Source: Enterobacter hormaechei ATCC 49162
GTDB taxonomy: Bacteria; Pseudomonadota; Gammaproteobacteria; Enterobacterales; Enterobacteriaceae
Assembly: GCF_001875655.1 (NCBI RefSeq)
Contig: NZ_MKEQ01000001.1
Coordinates: 868,001 to 932,000 of the forward strand
DNA: 64,000 nucleotides
Direction of reading: 5' to 3'
The position numbers and the translations under genes were made by a program. Below the pieces are notes generated by a model, which was not told the DNA's origin, made no database searches, and saw only the letters and a list, made by a program, of their open reading frames with translations. Of the stretch, positions 4,882 to 18,093 are shown one piece after another (the stretch's first letter is position 1; every line of letters starts with the position of its first letter).

Positions 4882-5160
4882 ATGAGACAAAATATTCAGC
4901 TTCAACCCGAATATCACTCCGCCTTTTTAGATAGCGCGTTGTCGGAGTATTTCCGTCACGCAGGCGATCGTTTTGCTGAAGAGTCTGCCATTTTTTCGAC
5001 TGCGGTTCGTTGCGTACTTGCTTCCGAAGGTCATCTGACCAACAAAGCGATTATTCTCTGGCTGATCCAGACGCTGGAATCCACCGATGATGTCGTTAAG
5101 GCGGACGTGATCCGCAAGACGCTGGAAATTGTCGTCGGCTATACCATGGACGATCTTTAA
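4882..5160 (+). CDS. ariR: AriR (YmgB), biofilm and acid-resistance regulator
   Basis: 92 aa. Strong match to E. coli AriR: EESAIFSTAV, NKAIILWLIQTLEST and the C-terminal KADVIRKTLEIVVGYT. AriR is a small all-alpha dimer reported to repress biofilm formation and to aid acid survival; in the BluR pathway it acts upstream of RcsC/RcsD. Ribosome site GGTGAG lies 6 bp before the ATG. It is the last gene of the operon here: no ymgC follows, instead a 14-bp inverted repeat and a convergent LuxR-type gene. Confidence 0.9.
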   Translation: MRQNIQLQPEYHSAFLDSALSEYFRHAGDRFAEESAIFSTAVRCVLASEGHLTNKAIILWLIQTLESTDDVVKADVIRKTLEIVVGYTMDDL

Positions 5161-5188
5161 CGCCTCTCTCTTCGCATCTCTGCGGATA

Positions 5189-5232
5189 GCGTGTCATCGT
5201 CAATGGTGTTCAACAGACTGACGATGACACGC
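5189..5232. repeat. Perfect 14-bp inverted repeat between convergent ariR and a luxR-type gene
   Basis: GCGTGTCATCGTCA (5189-5202) and TGACGATGACACGC (5219-5232) are exact reverse complements separated by 16 bp. There is no T-run directly after either arm, so it is not a textbook terminator, but a stable RNA hairpin here would separate the two convergent transcripts. Confidence 0.7.
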
Positions 5233-5257
5233 CCTCTCTCCCATAACACCCTGTCAG

Positions 5258-5917
5258 TCATGCACACTGAATGTGTTCTGCATAATTATTTTCCAGGTAA
5301 TCGCGTAGCAGGTTCGGTCGGCTCTTTTTCGCCATCAGCCTTCTCAGCAGTACGATCAGCTCGTAATCGCTTCGCAGATTAAATTTCTGCATCATCATAT
5401 ATTTATGGGTAAAGACCGTTTTTTCGCTCATCTTCAACGCGTTCGCGGTCTGCACTACCGACAGCCCACGGTAAAAATTGACCATAATACGCATTTGTTG
5501 CCGGGATAACCCTTTATGCTGGCAGTCGAAACAGGTCTTTTTATTCCACGTGTAACCCGGTAATTGCGTCGCGTACCACGCGATAAACAATAAGCCGCTT
5601 ATACGATCAAGCGATGCACGGCGCGGAATAAAAACGATGTCCTGATAGCAGGAGGACAGTGCCGAAAAGCGCTGCTCATCGTCGACGAGTCCTATCACAA
5701 TCCCTTTTTGCCGGGCCAGTAACTCGGGAAAACAGGTCAGCGTTTCACCCTGACATAATGAAAGAACAATAATATCGGCCTGACTGACGTTCTCATTGGT
5801 CAGGCCCAGGTGAAATGTGATGGAGCGATGAAAGTTATGCTTAAAAAAATCCTCGAAAAAGTGCTGCAACCCAGCCTGAAAAAACAGATCCGTTTCCTGA
5901 ATCAGAATATTTAACAT
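5258..5917 (-). CDS. LuxR-family regulator at the end of the fimbrial operon
   Basis: 219 aa. The C-terminus (about 136-193) is a LuxR/GerE helix-turn-helix (LSRQQMRIMVNFYRGLS, MSEKTVFTHKYMMMQKF). The N-terminus resembles a response-regulator receiver in outline (ILIQETDLFF, IIVLSL) but has Ser53 where the phospho-Asp would be, so phosphorylation is unlikely. It lies 41 bp behind the minor pilin gene, same strand, so it is probably expressed with the fimbriae and feeds back on them or on motility, in the way FimZ/FimW-type regulators do. I cannot assign it to a named orthologue. A modest ribosome site GGTGTGAA precedes the ATG. Confidence 0.75.
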   Translation of the reverse strand: MLNILIQETDLFFQAGLQHFFEDFFKHNFHRSITFHLGLTNENVSQADIIVLSLCQGETLTCFPELLARQKGIVIGLVDDEQRFSALSSCYQDIVFIPRRASLDRISGLLFIAWYATQLPGYTWNKKTCFDCQHKGLSRQQMRIMVNFYRGLSVVQTANALKMSEKTVFTHKYMMMQKFNLRSDYELIVLLRRLMAKKSRPNLLRDYLENNYAEHIQCA

Positions 5918-5958
5918 AGTTCACACCAACGTCTTTAATAAAGGCTTATCAACGGCAC

Positions 5959-6471
5959 TCAGTTGTACTGCATTGTCATTACCACAACAGCACTGATGCT
6001 TCCCGGCGTGGCGCCACCCGCTATCGATTTTACCGAGGCCTGCATCGCCATTGTCGCCGTTCTGTCCGCGGCAATGGTCTGGGTCATGCTGGAGCCTGTT
6101 CCTTTAAGCGCACCGGTTTGGGCATCACGCATGGCTATCGCCACGTGCGTGGCCGAACCGCTATTCATAAAATAGTCCGCGCCCGCCACGGGATCGGGGC
6201 TGCCGGTGAAAGAGACAGTCACACTCTGCGTTCCGGTTGGGCATTGGGTAAACAGCAGACTAAAAGGCACCGGATCCGATGTTGAGCCAGGCGTCGCCAT
6301 ATTGGTTGCCTGAATATTGCCCAGGTTGACATCGAGGCTGTTACTCCCGCCATTAAATATGCACGGCGACGCCACGATATTTCCCGTCACGCCTATGCTG
6401 ACGCTGTCAGCGGAAAAACCCTTCCCGCTGAATAAGGCAAGTAACAGCAGTATCCTGCATCTTATTTTCAT
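5959..6471 (-). CDS. Fimbrial minor pilin (FimG/FimF-like)
   Basis: 170 aa with signal peptide (about 1-20, ...FSGKGFSA), then an Ig-like pilin domain with the usual cysteine pair (SPCIF near residue 37 and FTQCP near residue 77) and the penultimate tyrosine C-terminal beta-zipper MTMQYN. Such subunits sit in the fibrillum between rod and adhesin and are delivered by the periplasmic chaperone to the usher. It is the last structural gene, 11 bp behind the adhesin gene, which shares its strand. The specific type of minor subunit cannot be decided from sequence alone. Confidence 0.85.
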   Translation of the reverse strand: MKIRCRILLLLALFSGKGFSADSVSIGVTGNIVASPCIFNGGSNSLDVNLGNIQATNMATPGSTSDPVPFSLLFTQCPTGTQSVTVSFTGSPDPVAGADYFMNSGSATHVAIAMRDAQTGALKGTGSSMTQTIAADRTATMAMQASVKSIAGGATPGSISAVVVMTMQYN

Positions 6472-6482
6472 CTTCTTACCTG

Positions 6483-7430
6483 CTACTGATAGGTCAAATT
6501 AAGGGTGGCGGAGGCATTCGCTGAACCTGACTCTACGCGAGACAACGTCTGGTAATAACGGGCCGTTAATGGCAATGTCTCTTGCCCCCCGGCGGACTGT
6601 CGCAAGAAAAGTCGGCTGTTCATCACCAGCGGCGCACCGTTATAGATAAGCTGCACCCCTACCCCTTTTGCGGTGCCGGCATTACCCTGCCCGGTTAAGG
6701 CCATCACGCTGGTATTGGCGCTGTCCGGATTCTGTATTCCACTGAGCGAGACCGAAATATTGGTTCCGGCAGCGCAGGTTAAGCCCAGGTTTTGCGTATT
6801 CTGTGCCCCCGTCGGCGTGGTGCCCACCACGGTGCCGAACGCCGAGACGGGAATATCTCCGATCGGAAACGTAAGCTGTGACGTATTCACCGTGCACGCC
6901 AGAGCATTGATGGTGCCGGAGGTGAGCTGCGTGGTCAGACCGTCACGGTAGAGACCGTCGCTTCCCTGAAGCGTCACGACGCCTATCACCCCCGGGGTTA
7001 ACGCCCCCGATGACACCGGGCCAGTCACCACCAGCTCAATGCGTCCGCCGTACCAGTCCACATAGGAGGTCTGAGCGTTGTATGAGAACGTATTACTCGG
7101 GTTTTCAAAATAGTTGTTGGAAGAAAAGCGTATCCCTATCCCGCTGACGTTCGTGTTGTAGACATGGTTGCCGTAGCTGCTCAACGTGGCGCTGTTGTAG
7201 CGCATGCTGAATCCCAGCATCAGCGGATTAGTGCATCCGGTAAGATAGGAGCCTGTGGCTGACGCCGCGCCGGAAAATACCACCGTACCGACAGGCGCAT
7301 CGCGCTGCACGTTGATGGTCCCCACGGACAGGGTGGAAAGCTGTGGGGTGATGGTGGTGCAGGTTCCGGCACGCGCCATATTTCCCGCCGCAAGCAAACA
7401 GAGCAGCAACATCGCGTTTAGATATTTCAT
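6483..7430 (-). CDS. Two-domain fimbrial tip adhesin (FimH-like)
   Basis: 315 aa from the ATG at 7430, one base after the usher stop (TAACATG), with a signal peptide MKYLNAMLLLCLLAAGNMARAG; the longer in-frame opening at 7475 lies inside the usher gene. The N-terminal half (about 22-165) is a lectin-type domain rich in Asn/Ser/Tyr with cysteines at the start (GTCTT) and in TGCTN; the C-terminal half begins near LACTVNTSQLTFPIGDI and is a pilin domain ending in ATLNLTYQ. The length and two-domain layout are those of FimH-family adhesins. The binding-pocket residues of mannose-specific FimH are not recognisable, so the ligand is unknown. Confidence 0.82.
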   Translation of the reverse strand: MKYLNAMLLLCLLAAGNMARAGTCTTITPQLSTLSVGTINVQRDAPVGTVVFSGAASATGSYLTGCTNPLMLGFSMRYNSATLSSYGNHVYNTNVSGIGIRFSSNNYFENPSNTFSYNAQTSYVDWYGGRIELVVTGPVSSGALTPGVIGVVTLQGSDGLYRDGLTTQLTSGTINALACTVNTSQLTFPIGDIPVSAFGTVVGTTPTGAQNTQNLGLTCAAGTNISVSLSGIQNPDSANTSVMALTGQGNAGTAKGVGVQLIYNGAPLVMNSRLFLRQSAGGQETLPLTARYYQTLSRVESGSANASATLNLTYQ

Positions 7431-7431
7431 G

Positions 7432-9975
7432 TTAGCGTTCCTGACGGCAGGTAGCGCGCATATCAGCGATCCCACCGAACGTTGAGTGTTTCGGCAGCGT
7501 GAAATCAGCGCGGCATTGCTGGCTGGATTGACTCCCCCATGTCGCGACTAACGTTCCCTGCTCGCGCATACCGGTTAAATAGACCTGACCGCGATCGCCG
7601 ACAATAAAACTGCCGCTGTCATCACCCACAAGGGTGACCACCGCCCCAAACGGAACGGCGCGGTCGTTGTCAGTTAAGGTCATCAGCACCCGGCGTCCTG
7701 ACTTCGGAAGATAATCGGCTCTCACCACCGCCCCCCGCGTCGGCGTTACCGTGCGGGTGTTGATCTCCAGCTCGACATCGTCCGGCATATTTTCCGGGTC
7801 GAGGGTGAGATCGTTTTTGCGGTAGACAGAAAGGTTGCTCACGACCGTATAACCGCGAAAATCTGTCCGAACACCGGGCTGATTGCGGATATCCACGCCG
7901 TGGGCGCCCGGCGCTTTGATTAAGACGTTGGTCTCCCCCAGCGGCTGAGAGAGCGTGATGCCATCAGCATGGGCGAGAATGCCGCCTTGCAGGCCATAAT
8001 TCAGGCGTTCACTGTTTTTGTCATAGCCATATCCCGCCGTGAATTCGCCATAGGTGCCTCTGTAGTCCGCGTTAACGTTGCCGGTATAGCCCACACCCTC
8101 TGTGCCGTAACCCTGCTGCACGTTCCAGTTCAGGGCACGGTTCTCAAGCGCCACCCCGTTGAGGCCGACGTTATGCGTCGTCCCGTTATTTCTGCTGGCG
8201 TTCATGCCATAGTTAGCCCATGTCTGCGGCAAAAATTTATCCAGCGGAATGCTGACGTTGAGCGCCAGCAGTTGGTCGTGGTCTGCGTTTTTTTGGCTGT
8301 CGCGCATCTCTGACCCCGAGCGGACATTTTTGCTGTAGGTCCATGTCAGGCCATAGCTGATGTTGTGCCAGTAGTTGCTATAGCCGACGCTCCACGAAGC
8401 CATCGACTTACCGTCATTCCAGTAATCTTCCCGCGCCGCACTGAGGGTGAGCGCGCCCAGGTTGCCCCCCAGCGTCTGGCTCATCGTCAGCTCGGCACGG
8501 TTACGCCGCCTGTCCTGAAGCGCGCTGCTGTCGCCGTACGAATCGAGTACGTCCTGCATCCCGTAATAGCCGCGGGTCGAGTAGCGATACCCGGCAATCG
8601 AAAAGTTTGTCCCGGTATTGATAAAATTTTTGCTGTATCTGGCCCGCCACGACTGACCGCTTGTTTTCGCGGCATGCTCCGGCGTTGACCAGCCCTGAGT
8701 GACGTCAGCGGATATCGCCCCGAGATCGCCCATGTTTTTGCCCATCCCCAGGGCCGCCGACTGGTATTTATCTGCCCCCTGGACGCCGCCATAGAGCGTG
8801 ATGCCGTGGCGGAAGCCGTAAATTCCGGTCAATTGCCCGAAGGGAGTTTTCTCCACGCTGCGGTTATAGGCGCGATACTGCCCGGCGGTAAGGGCGTATT
8901 TCAGACGCCCCTCCCGTTGCAGGACCGGCAACGAAGCGTACGGCAGGGTAAAATGTTGTTCGCTGCCATCGGCTTCGACGATCGTCACATCCAGATCGCC
9001 CGCACCGCCGGTGGGGTACATATCCGCGATCTCAAACGCGCCCGGCGCCACATAGCTTTGGTAGATTTGATAGCTATTCTGACGTACCACGACCTGCGCA
9101 TTAGTACGCGCAATACCGCGGACCACCGGCGCATACCCTTTCAGGGAATCCGGCAGCATATCGTCGTCGGAGGCCAGCTGGACGCCGCGAAACGGCATGC
9201 TGTCAAAGACATCGGCAGGCGCGGAACTGTCCCCGAGGGTGAGCTGGGCTTGCAGGGGAATAATGGCGCGCTGCATCCAGGTGTAGACGTTATCCCACTT
9301 ATCCTGGCCGGACGCATCGCGGGACCAGGTGGTGTAGTTGCGTAGCCGCCAGGGGCCGACGTTGATCCCCGGCCGCAGGTTTGCATACTGGCTGTCGCTG
9401 CGGGAGCCAGCCCCGCTTCTCGCCCGGCTGTTCGCGCCGCTAAGGCTGTAGTTGAGCATGGCCGCAGTGATGCCTTCATCCCACATGTCCGGTGGAACGT
9501 AACCTCTGGCAGGCAGGTCAATGGCCGCCTGTGGAATGCTGATCGCCAGACGCTGGGCGCCAAACTGGAAGTCTGCGCTGGCCTGTGGAATCGCCTTGAG
9601 ATCTGCGCATTCACCTTGCTCAGCGGCGAGCTGTGGGAAAAGCGCCGTTTTCACGCCCCACGCGTTTAACTGCCCGATACTCAGGCACGGCCGCAACGTT
9701 TCCCCGCCGTTAGCATCTTTCACTGCCATGAAACGAATATCACGTGTTTCCAGTAGCCGATCGTCAAGAATAATATCAACGTGGTATGTCCCGGGTGCCT
9801 GCGAGCCGGATTCAAAGGCAGATAAATCCGCTTTTCCCATTCCGGGGTTATCCAGCTCTACCAGTTCTGTATTAAAGGTCTCAGTGGCATACAGTGCGGG
9901 AGAGACACCAGCAAGCGCGAAGGCAATAAAAATTGCCAGGGGCGCAGGCTGCATTGTATTAAATGCCGTTGTCAT
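7432..9975 (-). CDS. Fimbrial outer-membrane usher (FimD/PapC family)
   Basis: 847 aa. The ATG at 9975 has an AGGTG ribosome site; a GTG three codons earlier is a poorer choice. A signal peptide ends near ALYA, followed by the N-terminal chaperone-binding domain (FNTELVELDNPGMGKADLS), a 24-strand barrel with plug, and two C-terminal domains that end with the cysteine pair in QQCRADFTLP and ATCRQER. Ushers form the secretion pore that stacks pilin subunits. It is 27 bp behind the chaperone gene and 1 bp before the adhesin gene. Confidence 0.95.
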   Translation of the reverse strand: MTTAFNTMQPAPLAIFIAFALAGVSPALYATETFNTELVELDNPGMGKADLSAFESGSQAPGTYHVDIILDDRLLETRDIRFMAVKDANGGETLRPCLSIGQLNAWGVKTALFPQLAAEQGECADLKAIPQASADFQFGAQRLAISIPQAAIDLPARGYVPPDMWDEGITAAMLNYSLSGANSRARSGAGSRSDSQYANLRPGINVGPWRLRNYTTWSRDASGQDKWDNVYTWMQRAIIPLQAQLTLGDSSAPADVFDSMPFRGVQLASDDDMLPDSLKGYAPVVRGIARTNAQVVVRQNSYQIYQSYVAPGAFEIADMYPTGGAGDLDVTIVEADGSEQHFTLPYASLPVLQREGRLKYALTAGQYRAYNRSVEKTPFGQLTGIYGFRHGITLYGGVQGADKYQSAALGMGKNMGDLGAISADVTQGWSTPEHAAKTSGQSWRARYSKNFINTGTNFSIAGYRYSTRGYYGMQDVLDSYGDSSALQDRRRNRAELTMSQTLGGNLGALTLSAAREDYWNDGKSMASWSVGYSNYWHNISYGLTWTYSKNVRSGSEMRDSQKNADHDQLLALNVSIPLDKFLPQTWANYGMNASRNNGTTHNVGLNGVALENRALNWNVQQGYGTEGVGYTGNVNADYRGTYGEFTAGYGYDKNSERLNYGLQGGILAHADGITLSQPLGETNVLIKAPGAHGVDIRNQPGVRTDFRGYTVVSNLSVYRKNDLTLDPENMPDDVELEINTRTVTPTRGAVVRADYLPKSGRRVLMTLTDNDRAVPFGAVVTLVGDDSGSFIVGDRGQVYLTGMREQGTLVATWGSQSSQQCRADFTLPKHSTFGGIADMRATCRQER

Positions 9976-10002
9976 GACGAGCACCTGGTTAATGCAAGGA
10001 GA

Positions 10003-10680
10003 TCACAAACTGGCCCGGTGTAATTCGCCGGGACTACCATAATCGTTAATAACTTTAAACGTCAGCGCATTGCCACTGGCCCCGTTCGGTAGCGGAAAGC
10101 TAGCGGAGCCTGAAGGCATCACGTAGGTGACGTCGTTAAGTTTTTTATCCCCCAACGTGATTTCATTGAAATTAATCACGTACGGCGTTGGGTTATTTAC
10201 CTGAAGGGTATTCCCGGCACGACGCCAGGTTAATTTGTTGGCCTGGTCCTCGGGAGTAGACGCACGAAGACCCTCTGGCCGATAAATAAGTTTGATGCGC
10301 GTTTTAACGGCAATTTGCAGCGAGTTCATCTGCTTCGAGGCTGACGGTATGGCTTTAATGTTCAGCCAGAATAAACTCTCCTGCCCCTGAGGCAGCGAGC
10401 CTGTCATGACTATACGCTCAAGGTTTTTTTGCCCGCCATCCAGACGATACAGCGGAGGCGTAATAATAAAAGGCACTTTACCCGATTGCTCATCCTTAAC
10501 GTCAATCCACGACTGGATTAAATAAGGAACGTTATCAGGATTGGTAATACTTATTGACGCCTCTTTTTTAGCCCCATCAAAAATAATACGGGTGCCGCCA
10601 ATAATCACGCCTGCACTGGCGGATGTTAACGTCAGCGGTAACAGCGCCATAGCCAGGCCTGTTGTCATGATAAAACGCAT
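10003..10680 (-). CDS. Periplasmic fimbrial chaperone (FimC/PapD family)
   Basis: 225 aa with a signal peptide (about 1-23, ...SASAG). It has two Ig-like domains. The subunit-anchoring residues of the family are present: Arg in GTRIIFDG near the mature N-terminus and Lys in KTRIKLIYRPEGL. The F1 region is short, of the FGS type used for rod-like pili. It caps pilins by donor-strand complementation and hands them to the usher. A hairpin with a T-rich tail lies between the pilin gene and this one, which would lower its expression relative to pilin. Ribosome site GAGGT is 8 bp before the ATG. Confidence 0.95.
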   Translation of the reverse strand: MRFIMTTGLAMALLPLTLTSASAGVIIGGTRIIFDGAKKEASISITNPDNVPYLIQSWIDVKDEQSGKVPFIITPPLYRLDGGQKNLERIVMTGSLPQGQESLFWLNIKAIPSASKQMNSLQIAVKTRIKLIYRPEGLRASTPEDQANKLTWRRAGNTLQVNNPTPYVINFNEITLGDKKLNDVTYVMPSGSASFPLPNGASGNALTFKVINDYGSPGELHRASL

Positions 10681-10699
10681 TTTAATACCTCATAAAACA

Positions 10700-10719
10700 A
10701 GGGGCCGGGCGGCCCCCTG
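10700..10719 (-). terminator. GC hairpin between major pilin and chaperone genes
   Basis: On the minus strand the pilin stop is followed by GGGGCC-GCCC-GGCCCC and then TTGTTTT before the chaperone ribosome site. This is a leaky-terminator or mRNA-end-stabilising hairpin of the kind that makes pilin mRNA more abundant than chaperone/usher mRNA in fimbrial operons. Confidence 0.7.
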
Positions 10720-10736
10720 CTGATTACTGCAATGAC

Positions 10737-11267
10737 TTAGTTGTATACCACGGAGAAGTTTGCGACCGAGTTAGCCGGGCCAGCGGTCACGGATGCCGCG
10801 GTGGAGATATACTGCGCGTAGAAGTTCAGCGTATTATCAGCCGTACTGCTGAGTGCATAGGTATAGCTGTTGCTGCCGTGCAGCGGCAGATCGGCTTTAT
10901 CTGCCGTCATCAGGTTAATCGCCACCCCCGTGGCCGCCCCTGCCACGGAGGCATCAATTGCCAGCAGGCTGGCGTTGGTTAAATCCGGCGTGCCGTCAAA
11001 ACGGACTTTTGCATTCGTGACCGTCACCGGACAGTTTTTCAAAATAATATTGAATTGCGTCGCCGCCGTTCTCGCCCCGGTCGTCGGGAATTCCGTTTTA
11101 TAATAATCGCCTAATACCACCACCTGGTTCTGGGATGCCACATCAACATCGCAGGCAGAATCCAGAATGTTTCCGTTAAAATTAACGGTACCGGCCGCTG
11201 CGAATGCATTTGTCATGGTGAGTACTGAACTTGCCGCTAACATTGCCATCATCAATTTCTTATTCAT
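10737..11267 (-). CDS. Major fimbrial subunit (FimA-like pilin)
   Basis: 176 aa. The signal peptide MKKLMMAMLAASSVL-type segment ends in NAFA-AAGTVNF; the mature pilin begins with GTVNFNGNILDSACDV and has the disulfide pair Cys39 (SACD) and the Cys in KNCPVTV, with a C-terminal beta-strand ending VVYN. It is first in the operon and 56 bp from the chaperone gene. The 354-bp region upstream is shared with a divergent Crp/Fnr-like regulator gene and carries three identical-type palindromes, which point to control by that regulator and not by an invertible switch (no recombinase gene or inverted-repeat switch was seen). Confidence 0.93.
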   Translation of the reverse strand: MNKKLMMAMLAASSVLTMTNAFAAAGTVNFNGNILDSACDVDVASQNQVVVLGDYYKTEFPTTGARTAATQFNIILKNCPVTVTNAKVRFDGTPDLTNASLLAIDASVAGAATGVAINLMTADKADLPLHGSNSYTYALSSTADNTLNFYAQYISTAASVTAGPANSVANFSVVYN

Positions 11268-11380
11268 GATTTTATATCCTGTGTTACTTTATTTATTACC
11301 AACATTCAATTTCAGAAATAAAAGCCCTTCCGACGAGTTAAAATTTATACAACTCTTTTTCCGCATACAATCAATTTTGA

Positions 11381-11396
11381 GGTCTAGCTGTAGACC
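11381..11396. promoter_or_regulatory. Palindromic operator 1 (GGTCTA-N4-TAGACC), pilin side
   Basis: GGTCTAGCTGTAGACC: perfect 6-bp arms with a 4-bp spacer. It is about 115-130 bp upstream of the pilin start. On the minus strand a TTGATT (11369-11374) with a TGTATA 17 bp further on would be a possible weak pilin promoter, with this palindrome just upstream of its -35: an activator position. Confidence 0.7.
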
Positions 11397-11453
11397 CTCT
11401 TTTAACAAATACAAAACATATTCATTCGGAAACACCTTAAGAATATTGGCTAT

Positions 11454-11469
11454 GGTCTACTTTTAGACC
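11454..11469. promoter_or_regulatory. Palindromic operator 2 (GGTCTA-N4-TAGACC), central
   Basis: GGTCTACTTTTAGACC: same arms and same 4-bp spacer as operator 1, 73 bp from it (seven helical turns). It lies mid-way between the pilin and regulator promoters. Confidence 0.7.
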
Positions 11470-11498
11470 TGAGTTAAAAAATTTTAAAATTCAATTAA

Positions 11499-11534
11499 TT
11501 AACACTCCGAAATAGGTAAGTCTATAATTAGACT
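11499..11534 (+). promoter_or_regulatory. Regulator promoter with palindromic operator 3 on the -10 box
   Basis: TTAACA (11499-11504) and TATAAT (11523-11528) are separated by 18 bp, a good sigma-70 promoter reading towards the first Crp/Fnr-like gene. The third palindrome AGTCTA-TAAT-TAGACT (11519-11534) covers the -10 box completely, so a protein bound there would block this promoter. The region from 11268 to 11621 otherwise holds no gene. Confidence 0.72.
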
Positions 11535-11621
11535 CGCCGCGAATATTCCCTGACTTACTGTTTTTTAAGATAATTCTCTATGCCGATCAAAAAATGATCG
11601 CATCAGTGAGTGAGGTCTCAA

Positions 11622-12281
11622 ATGAATACCCGATTCGTGCCTGAGTCAGAAATTGATAAGTCAACAGCGCTTGGCGCTAAGCCTTTCAAGCACATTGAAA
11701 AGTTAATCGATAATGTTGTGCCGCATGCAGAGAGACACATTATTGCTAAGGGGGAAGTTATCCATTATTACGCCGGGGATATCCGTCAGTGCTTTTTACT
11801 GTTACACGGCAGCGTGGCGTTGCACCGTCGCGGTGATGGTATCGTCTTAAATTCTGAATCCGCGCCATTTATACTCGGCGTGAGCAGCCAGTTTTCTTCT
11901 GAACACCTTTACGTCAGAGCGCTGGAAACCTCAGAGGTGGCCAGCGTTTCGCTGGCGTGTTTTAATCGTGTTGTCGCACAACAGAATTTATGGGAACACT
12001 TCTCAAACCTGCTGATCTATACCGCATCGCGCGTCTACGAACATTGCGCCCAGATATCGCAAATGTCGGCTTATGACATTATCCGCTTTCAGCTGGTCGA
12101 GCTGATGCAGGAGCCGGAAGCCATCAGACAAAACATAACCGCCGCAGCCTATATCAAAAGCCGTACCTATCTTTCACGCAGCGGCATTATGCGGATCCTC
12201 GCGGAGTTGCGGACAGGGAAATACATCACCATGGAGCGCGGCGTGCTATTAGAGATCCATCATTTACCCCGTAAGTACTGA
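11622..12281 (+). CDS. Crp/Fnr-like transcription regulator, first of two paralogues (IprA/YaiV-type)
   Basis: 219 aa; the ATG at 11622 is preceded by GTGAGG at a normal distance, so an in-frame GTG at 11610 is not used. Layout: cyclic-nucleotide-binding-like beta roll (about 30-125, FLLLHGSVALHRR) lacking the cAMP-contact motif of CRP, a dimer helix, and a winged helix-turn-helix (about 165-219) containing YLSRSGIMRILAEL. It shares the pattern AYxxIRxQLVxLMQE...LSRSGxMRILAxLxTG with the next gene. It is divergent from the fimbrial operon, and its own -10 box lies inside a palindrome, so autorepression and fimbrial control are likely. The ligand or signal is unknown. Confidence 0.8.
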   Translation: MNTRFVPESEIDKSTALGAKPFKHIEKLIDNVVPHAERHIIAKGEVIHYYAGDIRQCFLLLHGSVALHRRGDGIVLNSESAPFILGVSSQFSSEHLYVRALETSEVASVSLACFNRVVAQQNLWEHFSNLLIYTASRVYEHCAQISQMSAYDIIRFQLVELMQEPEAIRQNITAAAYIKSRTYLSRSGIMRILAELRTGKYITMERGVLLEIHHLPRKY

Positions 12282-12358
12282 GGCTGTATTTATCTCTGGA
12301 GAAGGAGGAAAAGAAGAGCGACACTATAGGAAGTACTATCTCTTTCCAGGTTAACGCT

Positions 12359-12988
12359 ATGTCTTCTGATAAACCATCGCATCGCGGCTCTCCCTATGCT
12401 CAGGAACTGATTTCTCATTTACAGCCGCACTGCGCCACGCATAAAACCGATCCCGGCGAGCAACTTGATCTCCAGGTTAACGGGCAGAGCATGTGTTATT
12501 TAATTCTTGAGGGCACGGTCGCTATATACAGAAGAAGCGACGATATGATGCTTTCGACGGCGCGCAGTCCCGCCCTGTTTGGCCTCGCTAACCTGACGGA
12601 CATCTATTTTACCGATTATCTCAGAACGGTGACGCCTTGCCTGATCGGTGTGCTCACGACCGATCGGGTGGCTGAAATTATCAAAGAGAACGCGCTGTGG
12701 GGGCTGCTTTCTAATCATCTGATGTTTGTTTACAACCGCCTCTATCACAATGTCATGCCGAAAGGCGCGCCAACCGCATACGAAATGATTCGCCACCAGC
12801 TCGTGCTGCTGATGCAGGAAGATGACAGCTACCGACGTAGCGTGACGGCGGAAAGGTATATCAGGGATAAAACCCAGCTTTCCCGCAGCGGCGTAATGCG
12901 CATACTGGCTGACCTGAAAACGGGCGGGTTCATCGAAATGGAAGAAGGCCGGCTCATTAAAATTAACAAACTGCCTGCCAGATACTGA
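12359..12988 (+). CDS. Crp/Fnr-like transcription regulator, second paralogue (IprA/YaiV-type)
   Basis: 209 aa, 77 bp behind its paralogue and probably cotranscribed. A beta-roll domain (about 25-115, MCYLILEGTVAIYRRSDD) without a recognisable nucleotide-binding motif is followed by a winged helix-turn-helix with QLSRSGVMRILADLKTGGFIEM. The recognition region LSRSGxMRILAxL is nearly the same as in the first paralogue, so both may read the same operator or form heterodimers; the sensor halves differ more. Related E. coli IprA affects hydrogen peroxide resistance, but function cannot be carried over on this evidence. A terminator follows. Confidence 0.78.
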   Translation: MSSDKPSHRGSPYAQELISHLQPHCATHKTDPGEQLDLQVNGQSMCYLILEGTVAIYRRSDDMMLSTARSPALFGLANLTDIYFTDYLRTVTPCLIGVLTTDRVAEIIKENALWGLLSNHLMFVYNRLYHNVMPKGAPTAYEMIRHQLVLLMQEDDSYRRSVTAERYIRDKTQLSRSGVMRILADLKTGGFIEMEEGRLIKINKLPARY

Positions 12989-13000
12989 ATGTCAGACACT

Positions 13001-13026
13001 AAAAAGGCCGCGTTTGCGGCCTTTTC
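13001..13026. terminator. Bidirectional terminator between regulator and ydiH
   Basis: AAAAGGCCGC-GTTT-GCGGCCTTTT: perfect 10-bp arms with A and T tracts on both sides, between two convergent genes. Confidence 0.92.
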
Positions 13027-13034
13027 TTCACTGC

Positions 13035-13229
13035 TTAATGGACGTGAACGCCCAACCGCCAGGCAAAGTAGATCTCTTCTTTCAGTTCGTTAGAAGAGAG
13101 CGCCAGCAAATCCGTAAATTCCAGCTCAAGCTGTTTCAGCTTTTTCAGGTACTGCGCGGGAGACAGATTGCTTTTATCGCGACGTAAATATTCAATTGCC
13201 AGCTGTGTTGGGGTTATTTCAGTATCCAT
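13035..13229 (-). CDS. ydiH: YdiH, small conserved enterobacterial protein
   Basis: 64 aa from the ATG at 13229, which has a GCGAGGAC ribosome site and aligns with E. coli YdiH; an in-frame ATG at 13250 gives 71 aa but has no better support. The sequence is very conserved (PTQLAIEYLRRDKSNLSPAQ, LKKLKQLELEF, EEIYFAWRLGVH) and predicted to be helical and cytoplasmic. No function is known. In E. coli ydiH sits next to sufA; here about 11.4 kb of accessory DNA separates them. Confidence 0.88.
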   Translation of the reverse strand: MDTEITPTQLAIEYLRRDKSNLSPAQYLKKLKQLELEFTDLLALSSNELKEEIYFAWRLGVHVH

Positions 13230-13314
13230 GATGTCCTCGCTTATGTTCAAAACGTGACCAGTATATCACAATCGGGCGGCTATTTTTTGACCAAAAGCAA
13301 GGCATCCGGAAACT

Positions 13315-13725
13315 TTACACAACGGCCGTCGTCAGCCTGGATGAACAACACAGGCTATCCTGTTCGTCCAGAATCTCTATCTGCCACACCTGATGACGGC
13401 TTCCGGCATGCAGTGCGCGGCAGATGCCGCGCACGCGTCCGCTGCGAACGGAGCGGATGTGGTTGGCATTAACCTCCAGCCCCACCACCTTCTGCTCTCC
13501 TTCCGTACAGAGGTAGCCTGCCACCGACCCCAGCGTTTCAGCCAGCACGACGGACGCGCCGCCGTGCAACAGACCAAACGGTTGATGAGTGCGGCGGTCT
13601 ACTGGCATCGTTGCTTCCAGTTCGTCGTCGCCAATGCGCGTGAACTGGATGTCCAGCAAACCGACCATGTTCTCCGCGCCCATGGCATTTAATGCCTCCA
13701 GCGTGACCGCACGTTTCCAGATCAT
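13315..13725 (-). CDS. menI: MenI, 1,4-dihydroxy-2-naphthoyl-CoA hydrolase
   Basis: 136 aa hotdog-fold thioesterase of the menaquinone pathway: it releases DHNA from DHNA-CoA before prenylation by MenA. The family signature GLLHGGASVVLAETLGS carries the catalytic Glu63. The full E. coli MenI (YdiI) length is kept. Its ATG overlaps the ydiJ stop codon (ATGA), so it is translationally coupled to ydiJ. The remaining men genes are not in the window. Confidence 0.94.
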   Translation of the reverse strand: MIWKRAVTLEALNAMGAENMVGLLDIQFTRIGDDELEATMPVDRRTHQPFGLLHGGASVVLAETLGSVAGYLCTEGEQKVVGLEVNANHIRSVRSGRVRGICRALHAGSRHQVWQIEILDEQDSLCCSSRLTTAVV

Positions 13726-16700
13726 CCCATAATCTCCAGTAAAGCCTGCAATGGATGGCGAACGCCGTTACCTTCCACCCGTTTCACCTGGCTGCGGCAG
13801 GAGTAGCCCGTCGCCAGACAGCGGTTGCGTGGCAGGCGCTGCATCGCCTGATGCCATGACAGTTCATAGATGCCAAGCGAGTTGGCGTGGTTTTTGGCTT
13901 CATGGCCGTAGGTTCCGGCCATGCCGCAGCAGCCCACGTTGACGCTTTCCAGCTTCGCGCCAAACCGGGCGAAGATAGAAGCCCACTGGGCAGGCGCCGT
14001 CGGCAGCGCCGTCACTTCGGTACAGTGCCCAAACAGATACCAGGATTCTCCGCTGACCTCCTGAGGGGCCGTTTGCGTCAGCACCGCAGGCAGCCATTCG
14101 TGCACCAGTAAGACCTGAAAATCACCGCGCTTATCGCCGAGCGTCTGCTTGTATTCATCGCGGTAGCAGAGCACCAGCGCCGGATCGACGCCCACCATCG
14201 GCATGCCGAGCTGCGCCACGCGATTCAGGAAATCTGACGTTTTCTGCGCGGTTTTCGCAAAGCGGGTCAGGAAGCCTTTAATGTGCTGCGCCTTGCCGTT
14301 CGGGGAGAACGGCAGCACCACCGGCTGGTAGCCGATTTTCTCGGCCAGCCGGACAAAATCAGCCACCACCTGCGCATCGTAATAGCTGGTAAACGGATCC
14401 TGCACCACCAGCACCACCTTCGCTTTCTGCTCAGGGCTTAATGCTTCCAGTTGTTCCAGGGTCATGTTCGCCGAGCGGTGCCCCACCAGCCGACGCTGGA
14501 GCGATGGCGTCGACAGCAGCGGCAAATCCACCATGCCGATATGTTTTTCAGACAGTTTGCGCACCAGCGGCTGATTGATAAAGAAGTTAAAGGTTTTTGG
14601 CGCACGGGCCATCAGCGGCGCGTAACTCTCCACCGTCGCCACCAGATGATCGCGCATCGGGCGCAGATAACGCGTGTGGTACAGCTGGAGGAAGCGGGAA
14701 CGGAATTCCGGTACGTCAATTTTAATCGGGCACTGGGTTGAACACGCCTTGCACGCCAGGCAGCCGGACATAGCCTCTTTCACTTCATGAGAGAAATCGT
14801 ATTCACCTTTGTTCGCATGCCAGCTGTTGCGAGTGCGTTCGATAAGCCTGCGCAGGCTGGCGCGTTTTTCCGGCAGTTCCTGTTCCAGCTTGAGCGGGTC
14901 AATACCGCGATCGGCCAGCAGGCGCAGCCATTCACGCACCAGCGTCGCACGCCCTTTCGGGGAGTGGATGCGGTTGCTGGTGATTTTCATCGACGGACAC
15001 ATCGGGCTTTTCACGTCGAAGTTGAAGCACAGCCCGTTGCCGTTACACTCCATCGCGCCGCGCCAGGACGCGCGTACCGCAATCGGAATTTGTCGGTCAT
15101 AGGTGCCGCGCTTAACGGCGTCCACCTGCAACATCGGCGCATCAACGCCCTCCGGCGGGCAGATTTTTCCCGGGTTAAGGCGGTTATCGGGGTCAAATGC
15201 GGCTTTCACCTTACGCAGCTCGGCGTAGAGTTGTTCACCAAAGAATGCCGGGCTGTACTCGGCGCGGAACCCTTTGCCGTGCTCGCCCCATAGCAAGCCG
15301 CCGTATTTGGCCGTCAGGGCCACGACCTCGTCGGAGATCTCCTTCATCAGGATCTCCTGCTGCGGATCGCACATGTCCAGCGCCGGGCGCACGTGCAGCA
15401 CACCCGCGTCGACGTGCCCGAACATGCCATAGCTCAGACCATGGCTGTCCAGCAGCGCGCGAAACTCCACTATATAATCCGCCAGATGTTCCGGCGGCAC
15501 GCAGGTATCCTCCGCAAACGGAATCGGCTTCGCCGCCCCTTTCGCGTTGCCGAGCAGCCCCACCGCCTTTTTACGCATCGCGTAGATTCGCTCGATGCCA
15601 GAGAGATCGTTACACAGCTGCCAGCCAATGACGCCGCCTTCCCCCTGCGCAATCAGCTCGTCCAGACGCTGGCAGAGCGTGCTCACCTGGCTCTCAATAA
15701 GCTCTGCGTCATCCCCGGCGAACTCGACGATGTTCAGGCCGAGCATCTCTTTATCCGGCACGTCGGTAATCAGTTCGCTCACCGAATGCCAGACAATATC
15801 TTCCCGGGCCAGGTTCAGGACTTTTGAATCGACGGTTTCCACCGACAGCGCCCGCGCCTCCACCATAAACGGTGCATTACGCAGGGCGGAGTCAAAGGAG
15901 TTGTATTTGACGTTCACCAGACGGCGCACCTTTGGCAACCGGGTGATATCCAGTCGCGCTTCGGTGATGAAGGCCAGCGTCCCTTCTGACCCGGTCAGCA
16001 CGCGGGTAAGATCGAACTGGCTCAGATCGTCATTAAAGACATGACGCAGATCGTAGCCCGTCAGGAAGCGGTTAAGCTTCGGGAATTTGTCGAGGATCAG
16101 TTCGCGATTTTCGCGGCAGCGCTCCAGCACGGTACGATAAATCCGTCCGCTGGTGGTGCTCTCTTTTGCCAGCGTTTCAGCCAGTTCGACCGGCATCGGT
16201 TGGGTATCGAGAATATCGCCCCCCAGCAGCACCGCCCGCACACCCATGACGTGATCGGAGGTTTTGCCGTAGACCAATGAGCCCTGCCCCGAGGCATCGG
16301 TGTTGATCATCCCGCCAAGGGTCGCGCGGTTACTGGTGGAAAGCTCCGGCGCAAAAAAATAGCCGTAAGGTTTTAAAAACTGATTCAGCTGATCTTTGAT
16401 GACCCCCGCTTCCACACGTACCCACCCCTCTTCCGGGTTGATCTCAATGATGCGGTTCATATAGCGGGACATATCAATGATGATGCCCTGGTTCAGCGCC
16501 TGCCCATTGGTGCCTGTCCCGCCGCCGCGCGGGGTAAAGACCAGAGAGCTGAAACGGTCCTGCGACGCCAGGCGGGCGATGAGCGCTACATCGGCGGTAG
16601 AGCGCGGGAAAACGACGGCATCGGGAAGAAGCTGGTAAATACTGTTATCGGTCGCCATCGTCAGCCTGTCGGCATAATCGGTGGCGGTATCACCTGTAAA

Positions 16701-16778
16701 ACCCTGTTGCTCCAGTGCCTGCAAAAAATTAAGCACCAGCTGAACGACGCCCGGTGCCTGAGAAATCTGTGGGATCAT
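13722..16778 (-). CDS. ydiJ: YdiJ, FAD/Fe-S D-2-hydroxyglutarate dehydrogenase
   Basis: 1018 aa from the ATG at 16778 (MIPQISQAPG), equal in length to E. coli YdiJ; the 21-codon upstream extension is not conserved. Domains: FAD-binding type 4 (TPRGGGTGTNGQALNQG near residue 90), FAD-linked oxidase C-terminal region with the metal-site HVDAG, a ferredoxin-like [4Fe-4S] motif CLACKACSTQCPIK, and a C-terminal CCG domain (VGCCGMAGTYG). E. coli YdiJ was reported to oxidise D-2-hydroxyglutarate. It forms an operon with menI. Confidence 0.93.
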   Translation of the reverse strand: MIPQISQAPGVVQLVLNFLQALEQQGFTGDTATDYADRLTMATDNSIYQLLPDAVVFPRSTADVALIARLASQDRFSSLVFTPRGGGTGTNGQALNQGIIIDMSRYMNRIIEINPEEGWVRVEAGVIKDQLNQFLKPYGYFFAPELSTSNRATLGGMINTDASGQGSLVYGKTSDHVMGVRAVLLGGDILDTQPMPVELAETLAKESTTSGRIYRTVLERCRENRELILDKFPKLNRFLTGYDLRHVFNDDLSQFDLTRVLTGSEGTLAFITEARLDITRLPKVRRLVNVKYNSFDSALRNAPFMVEARALSVETVDSKVLNLAREDIVWHSVSELITDVPDKEMLGLNIVEFAGDDAELIESQVSTLCQRLDELIAQGEGGVIGWQLCNDLSGIERIYAMRKKAVGLLGNAKGAAKPIPFAEDTCVPPEHLADYIVEFRALLDSHGLSYGMFGHVDAGVLHVRPALDMCDPQQEILMKEISDEVVALTAKYGGLLWGEHGKGFRAEYSPAFFGEQLYAELRKVKAAFDPDNRLNPGKICPPEGVDAPMLQVDAVKRGTYDRQIPIAVRASWRGAMECNGNGLCFNFDVKSPMCPSMKITSNRIHSPKGRATLVREWLRLLADRGIDPLKLEQELPEKRASLRRLIERTRNSWHANKGEYDFSHEVKEAMSGCLACKACSTQCPIKIDVPEFRSRFLQLYHTRYLRPMRDHLVATVESYAPLMARAPKTFNFFINQPLVRKLSEKHIGMVDLPLLSTPSLQRRLVGHRSANMTLEQLEALSPEQKAKVVLVVQDPFTSYYDAQVVADFVRLAEKIGYQPVVLPFSPNGKAQHIKGFLTRFAKTAQKTSDFLNRVAQLGMPMVGVDPALVLCYRDEYKQTLGDKRGDFQVLLVHEWLPAVLTQTAPQEVSGESWYLFGHCTEVTALPTAPAQWASIFARFGAKLESVNVGCCGMAGTYGHEAKNHANSLGIYELSWHQAMQRLPRNRCLATGYSCRSQVKRVEGNGVRHPLQALLEIMG

Positions 16779-16803
16779 TGCTGTCGACCCTAATGAGAAT
16801 AGT

Positions 16804-16819
16804 GTGAAATCGTTTGCGT
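16804..16819. promoter_or_regulatory. Possible PurR box between ydiJ and ydiK
   Basis: GTGAAATCGTTTGCGT matches 12 of 16 positions of the PurR consensus ACGCAAACGTTTGCGT, including the central CG. It is in the divergent ydiJ/ydiK promoter region. Not tested; could be chance. Confidence 0.4.
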
Positions 16820-16977
16820 TGTGTCTGGAAAGTTTTATCACATTTTTTTCTTATGTGCTTCGTAGAATTACGGGCAAAATCCGCCTGTCAAAAATCGCTG
16901 AAATCACTAATGATTAGAGAGAAGCGGTTTATATTCCCATCAGCCTTGCTGGTGTTCATTTAAGGAAAGTTTTGTTT

Positions 16978-18093
16978 ATGGTCAACCTTCGTCAGCCCAG
17001 GGATGTCGCGCAGATACTGCTATCGGTGCTGTTCTTAGCCATTATGATTATTGCGTGTCTGTGGATTGTTCGCCCTTTCGTGCTCGGATTTGCCTGGGCC
17101 GCGACCGTCGTCGTCGCGACCTGGCCTTTACTCTTACGTTTGCAGAAGCTGCTGTTTGGTCGCCGCGGCCTGGCCGTGCTGGTGATGACGCTGCTGTTAT
17201 TCCTGCTGTTCATCATTCCCATTGCACTGCTGGTTAACAGCCTGGTTGACAGCAGCGGCCCGGTTATTCGTGCGGTCACCAGCGGTGACATGACGCTGCC
17301 GGATCTCGCGTGGCTGAACAGCATTCCGGTTGTGGGCGCCAAACTGTACAGCGGCTGGCATAGCCTGCTGGAGATGGGCGGTAGCGCCCTGATGGCCAAA
17401 GTGCGACCGTACATCGGGACAACCACCACCTGGTTTGTGGGGCAGGCTGCGCACATCGGTCGCTTCATGATGCACTGTGCGTTGATGCTGGTCTTCAGCG
17501 CCCTGCTTTACTGGCGCGGCGAGCAGGTTGCGCTGGGGATACGTCATTTCGCCACCCGCCTGGCAGGTAAACGCGGCGACGCCGCCGTGCTGCTGGCAGC
17601 CCAGGCCGTCCGCGCGGTGGCGCTCGGCGTGGTGGTCACAGCGCTGGTGCAGGCGGTGCTTGGCGGAATCGGGCTGGCGATTTCCGGCGTACCGTATGCC
17701 ACCATTTTCACCGTCATCATGCTAATGACCTGTCTGGCACAGCTCGGTCCGCTGCTGGTGCTGGTTCCCTGCATCATCTGGCTTTACTGGACGGGGGATA
17801 CGACCTGGGGCACGGTGCTGCTGGTCTGGAGTTGCGTGGTGGGCACCATGGATAACGTGATTCGCCCGCTGCTCATTCGCATGGGCGCTGACCTGCCGCT
17901 GATATTAATCCTGTCCGGGGTGATCGGGGGGTTAATTGCCTTCGGCATGATTGGTCTGTTCATCGGTCCAGTGCTGCTTGCGGTAACCTGGCGACTCTTC
18001 TCCGCCTGGGTGCATGAAGTGCCGCCGCCGGGAACCGATCCGGACGTCATCTTAAGCGAACTTGAAGAGCTGGAAGATAAGAACGCGCAGTAA
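16978..18093 (+). CDS. ydiK: YdiK, AI-2E family inner-membrane transporter
   Basis: 371 aa, an AI-2 exporter/permease (UPF0118, AI-2E) family protein with about seven to eight hydrophobic segments: two near 12-55, one near 65-88, and a C-terminal group from about 155 to 345. The ATG at 16978 (MVNLRQPRDVAQ) is the conserved start; AAGGAA lies rather far upstream. The substrate is not known; other family members export autoinducer-2 or act as Na+/H+ antiporters. It is divergent from ydiJ and is followed by a REP element and the rprA gene. Confidence 0.92.
   Translation: MVNLRQPRDVAQILLSVLFLAIMIIACLWIVRPFVLGFAWAATVVVATWPLLLRLQKLLFGRRGLAVLVMTLLLFLLFIIPIALLVNSLVDSSGPVIRAVTSGDMTLPDLAWLNSIPVVGAKLYSGWHSLLEMGGSALMAKVRPYIGTTTTWFVGQAAHIGRFMMHCALMLVFSALLYWRGEQVALGIRHFATRLAGKRGDAAVLLAAQAVRAVALGVVVTALVQAVLGGIGLAISGVPYATIFTVIMLMTCLAQLGPLLVLVPCIIWLYWTGDTTWGTVLLVWSCVVGTMDNVIRPLLIRMGADLPLILILSGVIGGLIAFGMIGLFIGPVLLAVTWRLFSAWVHEVPPPGTDPDVILSELEELEDKNAQ

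Follow-up and report, generated by a model that had tools for sequence, protein, structure and literature searches.

Crp/Fnr-type regulators include the closest described relatives of the system reported here. FNR reads the site TTGAT-N4-ATCAA, and at classical activator promoters of this type the sites are centred at -41.5 or -61.5. The cAMP pocket of CRP includes a GEL motif and R82-S83. A different sort of local regulator is known from fimbrial operons, where regulators such as FimZ, FimY and FimW either belong to the LuxR type (FimZ and FimW) or differ from CRP in other ways. A third point of comparison is IprA (YaiV) of Salmonella and E. coli, a member of the HTH_46 family (PF15977). According to published reports, Salmonella IprA influences fim (PMC6527747, PMC12502779) and other fimbrial genes too (PMC6527747), and yaiV is mentioned in PMC11408624 and PMC3688515. 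In the open-licence literature, mostly as titles and abstracts, we found no DNA site for HTH_46 regulators, IprA included, nor any described regulon with the operator presented below, in agreement with an earlier note on this DNA.

We have analyzed a 64-kb stretch of Enterobacter DNA (hereafter the window) in which two HTH_46 genes adjoin a fimbrial operon, with three copies of one palindrome in the gap between them. Related loci point to a way in which this little-studied family would read DNA, and to a possible role in switching its fimbriae on.

Palindromes between a fimbrial operon and two regulators

The operon, on the minus strand, starts with a pilin gene (PF00419, 10737-11267), followed by a periplasmic chaperone gene with PapD domains (PF00345 and PF02753, 10003-10680), an ORF of 850 aa (7432-9984) that is called usher-like from gene order and matches in related fimbrial loci only and, at the far end, a LuxR-type (GerE) gene (5258-5917). 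By these domains and the usher-like ORF it belongs to the chaperone-usher class, and it is the fimbrial operon of the earlier note. Just past the operon, a protein of about 92 aa (4882-5160) is similar to one found at a second palindrome locus (L094:7031-7306); both look to us like YmgB/AriR. On the plus strand are the two regulators, reg1 (219 aa, 11622-12281, with an ATG aligned with the orthologs and an alternative upstream GTG at 11610 in the ORF list) and reg2 (12359-12988), which are 33-34% identical and have the same recognition-helix residues. Both are HTH_46 proteins (scores of 93.5 and 85.3 bits, the curated cut-off being 29.3) with a weak cNMP-binding match, below the Pfam cut-off. 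The AlphaFold model of reg1 (pLDDT 79.9, pTM 0.54) predicts a CRP fold, the top Foldseek matches being Vfr and CRP (best E 5.8e-11) with a whole-chain TM of about 0.5, perhaps because the hinge differs. A profile comparison with CRP (E 2.3e-5) was consistent with this predicted fold, and the two together place reg1 in the Crp/Fnr superfamily, which is defined by a beta roll of the cNMP type at the N-terminus and a winged helix at the C-terminus.

The three palindromes of the earlier note were recovered as exact matches, none assigned to a strand: site 1 on the pilin side (GGTCTAGCTGTAGACC, 11381-11396), site 2 in the middle (GGTCTACTTTTAGACC, 11454-11469) and site 3 on the regulator side (AGTCTATAATTAGACT, 11519-11534), at distances of 73 and 65 bp. 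Exact copies of RGTCTANNNNTAGACY are found in the window at these three places only and in none of 100 dinucleotide shuffles, and the next-best match, at 16260, has two mismatches. Over the own genome (4.89 Mb) the core GTCTA-N4-TAGAC appears five times, three of them in this gap. A control with the reversed pattern gave 8 matches, but this pattern contains GATC-like words and was judged an unfair null, therefore shuffles were used. Besides, a relaxed match, GGTCCAGCGTTGGACC, was found at C1:2743908 of the same genome.

Two cores elsewhere in the own genome were considered as regulon members and rejected. One of them (L093:6642-6655, C1:3385641) lies 93 bp before a MASE1-GGDEF-EAL gene, with TTGATT-17-TATTAT directly after the core, and it was discarded because it is kept in many Enterobacter, both with reg1 and lacking it, and is replaced in several genomes, some of which have reg1. 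At this position some genomes have a different sequence and a few another inverted repeat, e.g., GGAAATGCTATTTCC. The other is located before a gene of 90 aa, presumably YqjD/ElaB-like, and is found in G000, G026, G041 and G048 among the matches listed.

Along the orthologous loci the palindromes are preserved. All three are present, with two mismatches at most, in 42 of 43 loci that encode reg1 (some genomes are counted twice, and L024, a partial match, is excluded); the exception is L054 (genome G034), with two sites, where site 3 has been lost and reg1 retained. The earlier note had pointed to loss of the palindrome beside a retained regulator and fimbria as the observation to look for against it, and the 43 loci examined gave no refutation of this kind. 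In 30 distinct orthologous upstream sequences (L048, L054 and duplicates left out) the 30 columns of the core arms had a mean identity of 98% to the window, compared to 72% for the spacers and 58.5% for the other 306 intergenic columns, and random sets of 30 taken from these 306 columns never exceeded 76.5% in 10,000 draws. The core of site 1 was conserved at 98.7%. Spacer conservation decreased from site 1 (92%) to site 2 (69%) and site 3 (54%), and changes in one arm were tolerated, such as TGGAC for TAGAC. The distances between sites drifted in diverged orthologs from 73/65 to 93/67, 110/67 and 115/67. Diverged relatives have a site close to the regulator that corresponds to site 3. Site 2 was present in close reg1 orthologs and not seen at L055, a diverged locus with a pair of regulators. 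The closest named reg1 orthologs were those of E. quasihormaechei (92%), E. hormaechei (89%) and E. cloacae (88%), and 11268-13000 was also compared by blastn with 20,395 records of E. coli and with 72,556 plasmids, neither of which gave a match. Within the reg1 leader we also observed an inverted repeat, CGATCA-AAAAA-TGATCG (11581-11597), fairly well conserved among the orthologous upstream sequences and with two GATC sites, a possible leader hairpin or Dam-sensitive element.

The palindrome tends to co-occur with this class of regulator. Among the matches listed, reg1 is present at no less than 68% identity in 30 of 60 genomes of the genus; 29 of these have at least one exact core at the reg1 locus, and G057 has imperfect copies only. 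For the other 30 genomes, again among the matches listed, 26 had zero or one core match anywhere, and those with more were G028 (five), G030 and G058 (three each) and G048 (two). At three loci with a reg2 ortholog and no reg1 (L068, L069 and L074; one of the genomes, G015, is 86% complete) no palindrome was found within 450 bp, the promoter of reg2 included. The same result was obtained within 450 bp at L058 (G048), where the pilin promoter region and the first operon genes are gone and a C-terminal reg1 remnant of 111 aa lies beside the last pilin gene, with reg2 (96%) and the LuxR-type gene (88%) still in place. Diverged regulators, reg1-type or single, located beside fimbriae have the palindrome at L055, L056 (one mismatch), L061, L062 and L063; at L057 it was not found. 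A pilin gene (PF00419) adjoins the regulators in all 10 diverged loci tested. From this comparison the palindromes are very probably operators of HTH_46 regulators, and we consider it likely that reg1 is their foremost reader. Since reg2 has the recognition-helix residues of reg1, it may read the same site. The earlier proposal that one or both neighbours bind the palindromes is supported by comparison with the relatives, mainly as regards reg1.

Some genomes have the palindrome in other places. The four further cores of G028 are found before two other fimbrial operons (L276 and L279), before a gene pair of no assigned function (L277) and in the gap between leuA and what looks like leuO (L278, contig C36), where GTCTACTTTTAGAC lies about 460 bp before this LysR-type gene (Pfam) and might connect the palindrome with a global regulator. 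Of the G058 cores, one precedes a fimbrial operon (L281) and another is upstream of an orphan LuxR gene (L280) whose neighbour is a Wzi-type capsule-assembly gene. A similar LuxR arrangement appears in G030 (L283), these orphan genes being 35% identical to the LuxR-type gene of the window. The palindrome at L282 (G042) precedes a fimbrial operon similar to L276 both in its place and in the start of the pilin. The stretches analyzed at L276, L279, L281 and L282 contained no HTH_46 gene; G042 has one elsewhere in its genome, with a G-S helix. A fixed distance to a -10 element was sought by eye at L276 and L282 and not found. Matches at L076 and L080, before genes that we take to be antitoxin-like from their first residues, look unrelated.

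Helix residues and half-sites across HTH_46

We have searched for similar sites upstream of other HTH_46 genes. Of the 149 genomes of the bacterial family, 48 have a PF15977 match. An order-wide set of 394 gave a single match above 60 bits from outside this family, located in G404. A part of all HTH_46 matches, 202 genes, was fetched (proteins shorter than 150 aa, genes with less than 150 bp upstream and identical proteins were left out) and grouped into 139 clusters at 70% identity. When every perfect inverted repeat with 5-bp arms was collected over 300 bp upstream and sorted by spacer length, without any motif given beforehand, the most recurrent arms with a 4-bp spacer were GTCTA (7 clusters) and GTGTA (6), with GTCCA in 3. 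Within 350 bp, and taking as reference 40 dinucleotide shuffles, GTCYA-N4-TRGAC was present in 11 of the 139 clusters (shuffle mean 0.125, maximum 2) and GTGTA-N4-TACAC in 6 (mean 0.1, maximum 1), while ATCYA-N4-TRGAT, in 3 (mean 0.275, maximum 3), was barely above chance.

The residues aligned with CRP positions 182 and 185 partition these three operator types in 20 out of 20 clusters at 350 bp. GTCYA sites go with G-R or G-S helices (11 clusters), GTGTA sites with S-K helices (6 clusters, one of which also holds a T-K member) and ATCYA sites with G-K helices (3 clusters). Extending the distance to 500 bp gave two exceptions: a GTGTA site at 424 bp in L111, where the helix is G-K, and an ATCYA site at 359 bp in L248, where the helix is G-R. 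When 26 representatives with a site were arranged in a tree, the pairing of G-K with ATCYA appeared in two separate places. The S-K proteins form two clades that share one physical site in L132 and L192, and therefore only about three independent switches of helix and operator are visible. Many clusters have no detectable site; GTCYA was present in only 9 of the 22 G-R clusters.

Two other repeats were also more frequent than in the shuffles within 350 bp, RGTCC-N6-GGACY (8 of 139 clusters; mean 0.05, maximum 1) and ATCAA-N4-TTGAT (4 of 139; mean 0.225, maximum 1). The helices that go with them vary, and the two residues do not account for either repeat. RGTCC-N6-GGACY, a fourth half-site type outside this code, is located some 90-165 bp before the HTH_46 genes of L224, L228, L230, L235 and L242, which have Y/H and R/Q helices. 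A repeat found in nine clusters before iprA-type genes, GGTGT-N5-ACACC, was rejected as an operator because in the own genome, the one of the nine clusters where this was established, it lies at the 3' end of an outer-membrane gene located upstream, in the part that codes for GVKYTW. Some of the sites are outside a fimbrial context, as at five loci (L072, L153, L164, L172 and L174) with no pilin gene among six neighbours.

Promoter geometry and competing readings

The two genes that flank the gap have candidate promoters placed in a similar way with respect to the palindromes. For reg1, the predicted -10 is GATAAT (11569-11574, plus strand), 34 bp after site 3 and within a block (11562-11574) conserved at 98.5%, with a -35-like TTCCCT at 11546-11551 on the same strand. 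For the pilin gene, on the minus strand, the predicted -10 is TATAAA (11344-11349), 31 bp from site 1, with GATTGT (11367-11372) as a weak -35 candidate. In 30 distinct orthologs the distance from this TATAAA to site 1 was 31 bp in 15 cases and 30 bp in 7, the other 8 having a variant hexamer. The earlier note had placed the promoter of the regulator at a TATAAT inside site 3 and suggested autorepression by covering it. However, in other orthologs this hexamer reads TATTAT, TATTAA, TATTTT or TACTTT, in line with the poor conservation of the site 3 spacer, and because of this and of the conserved candidate located downstream neither idea could be upheld. Control of pilin, also proposed there, finds support in site 1 and its spacing.

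The distance between operator and -10 recurs in diverged relatives. Considering the 21 clusters that have a site 70-190 bp before the regulator, NATAAT was found 32-35 bp after the site in 9, with both GTCYA and GTGTA sites, and was absent at that distance in 12. In 2,000 shuffles the mean was 0.49 and the maximum 4, and the other non-overlapping 4-bp windows of distance gave one cluster each at most; this null is generous to the claim, because the 32-35 bp window was chosen after inspecting the sequences. Counted from the predicted -10s, the centres of the sites fall near -51 for pilin and near -54 for reg1, overall at about -51 to -55. Such positions, upstream of poor predicted -35 hexamers, we read as activation of both promoters. 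We have also scanned 17 fimbrial loci for their own half-site. A single site with one mismatch at most was found in 9, on the regulator side in 7 and midway in 2 (L061 and L062), and an additional site on the pilin side was found at L132, L218, L055 and L149. Another feature seen near the proximal site, 12 bp upstream of it, is an AAG and, after it, a T-rich stretch, common to several diverged loci (L055, L101, L105, L118, L135, L149, L189 and L209).

We propose that the three palindromes serve as operators for the neighbouring regulators with the predicted Crp/Fnr fold, reg1 foremost and possibly reg2. A dimer would read RGTCYA half-sites 4 bp apart through the helix S-R-S-G-x-M-R (CRP 179-185) and, bound at sites 1 and 3 just upstream of the weak -35s, would most likely activate pilin and reg1. 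The gene for reg1 and the fimbria would then be turned on together in response to a signal, as a positive-feedback switch, and site 2 may add cooperativity or limit the feedback. Taken from end to end this explanation appears to us reasonably probable, and the same degree of trust is given to its central step, net activation of reg1 and pilin.

The same operators and regulators could also act in the opposite direction, with dimers that hinder RNA polymerase at pilin and reg1, perhaps forming a loop, until a signal releases them. Local Crp/Fnr-like regulators can repress, site 3 does contain a TATAAT in the window, and a loop could form among three sites that span about 155 bp. But the orthologs do not keep that TATAAT, the conserved -10 candidate is located 34 bp past the site, the distances between sites drift, and the recurrent spacing from site to -10 across diverged regulators suits contact with the polymerase better than occlusion, so we regard repression as rather unlikely. 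A different reader of the sites was also considered, the LuxR-type protein (5258-5917) from the far end of the operon. LuxR-type regulators bind palindromes, this gene belongs to the fimbrial operon, and the orphan LuxR genes of G030 and G058 have the same palindrome upstream. Against this, G028 has a site at L061 and a best LuxR match no better than 6.8e-5, the LuxR match of G058 is located at a distance from L062, G048 retains the gene and has no palindrome at the locus, and the operator type follows the HTH_46 helix, all of which makes a LuxR reader very improbable.

Instead of protein operators, the palindromes might be terminators, hairpins in RNA or the places where a phase switch recombines. 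Phase variation is common in fimbrial operons, and hairpins can arise from short inverted repeats. We give hardly any credit to this reading. No long T-run is found directly after the palindromes. A hairpin fits badly since the spacers vary and one-arm changes are tolerated while the arms are retained, no recombinase is evident by eye among the ORFs listed at 5000-18000, and related regulators show the same layout with a different half-site. A wider generalization of the activation model is tentative and, in our opinion, somewhat doubtful: that the two residues (CRP 182/185) form a code across much of HTH_46 (G-R/G-S for RGTCYA, S-K for GGTGTA, G-K for AATCYA), and that the fimbrial branch consists of switches which activate themselves and coordinate a number of fimbrial operons together with other functions of the cell surface.

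Relation to known regulators

The palindromes have the organization of Crp/Fnr-type operators, two-fold symmetric with 4 bp between the 5-bp cores of the half-sites as in FNR, in accordance with the architecture that the earlier note had recognized. In the same way, reg1 shares with these proteins the predicted CRP fold and a recognition helix that can be aligned with CRP S179-R185. However, the half-site is RGTCYA, and reg1 has Ser and Gly at the positions of CRP E181 and T182. It is neither CRP proper, with no counterpart of GEL and of the R82-S83 pocket in the aligned stretch, nor FNR proper: the first cysteine is residue 57 and therefore there is no N-terminal cluster of the FNR type. Crp/Fnr activator promoters have the site at a fixed distance upstream of the -10 and depend on the regulator for transcription; what was observed here is a recurrent distance from site to -10 candidate in 9 of 21 clusters (in a window picked post hoc), with predicted centres near -51 to -55 that differ from the classical positions.

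IprA shares the HTH_46 domain with reg1 and reg2, and to this extent the name IprA-like used in the earlier note is correct. As IprA itself they are excluded, with 79 and 72.8 bits against the 359 of the IprA equivalog (NF008810), and none of the three N4 site types was found within 350 bp of the genes with IprA-type helices (SRSV-x-AE; 0 of 15 V-E clusters). With FimZ, FimY and FimW the likeness is one of position, as local regulators beside a chaperone-usher operon, but the adjacent pair here is of the predicted Crp/Fnr fold. The predicted operator and the partition of operators by helix make the HTH_46 family testable and allow candidate regulons to be listed from sequence, and a positive-feedback switch is proposed for a fimbria of Enterobacter and relatives. 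These likenesses and differences are best read as local regulation of the Crp/Fnr type in a new variant, for which part of a recognition code is proposed.
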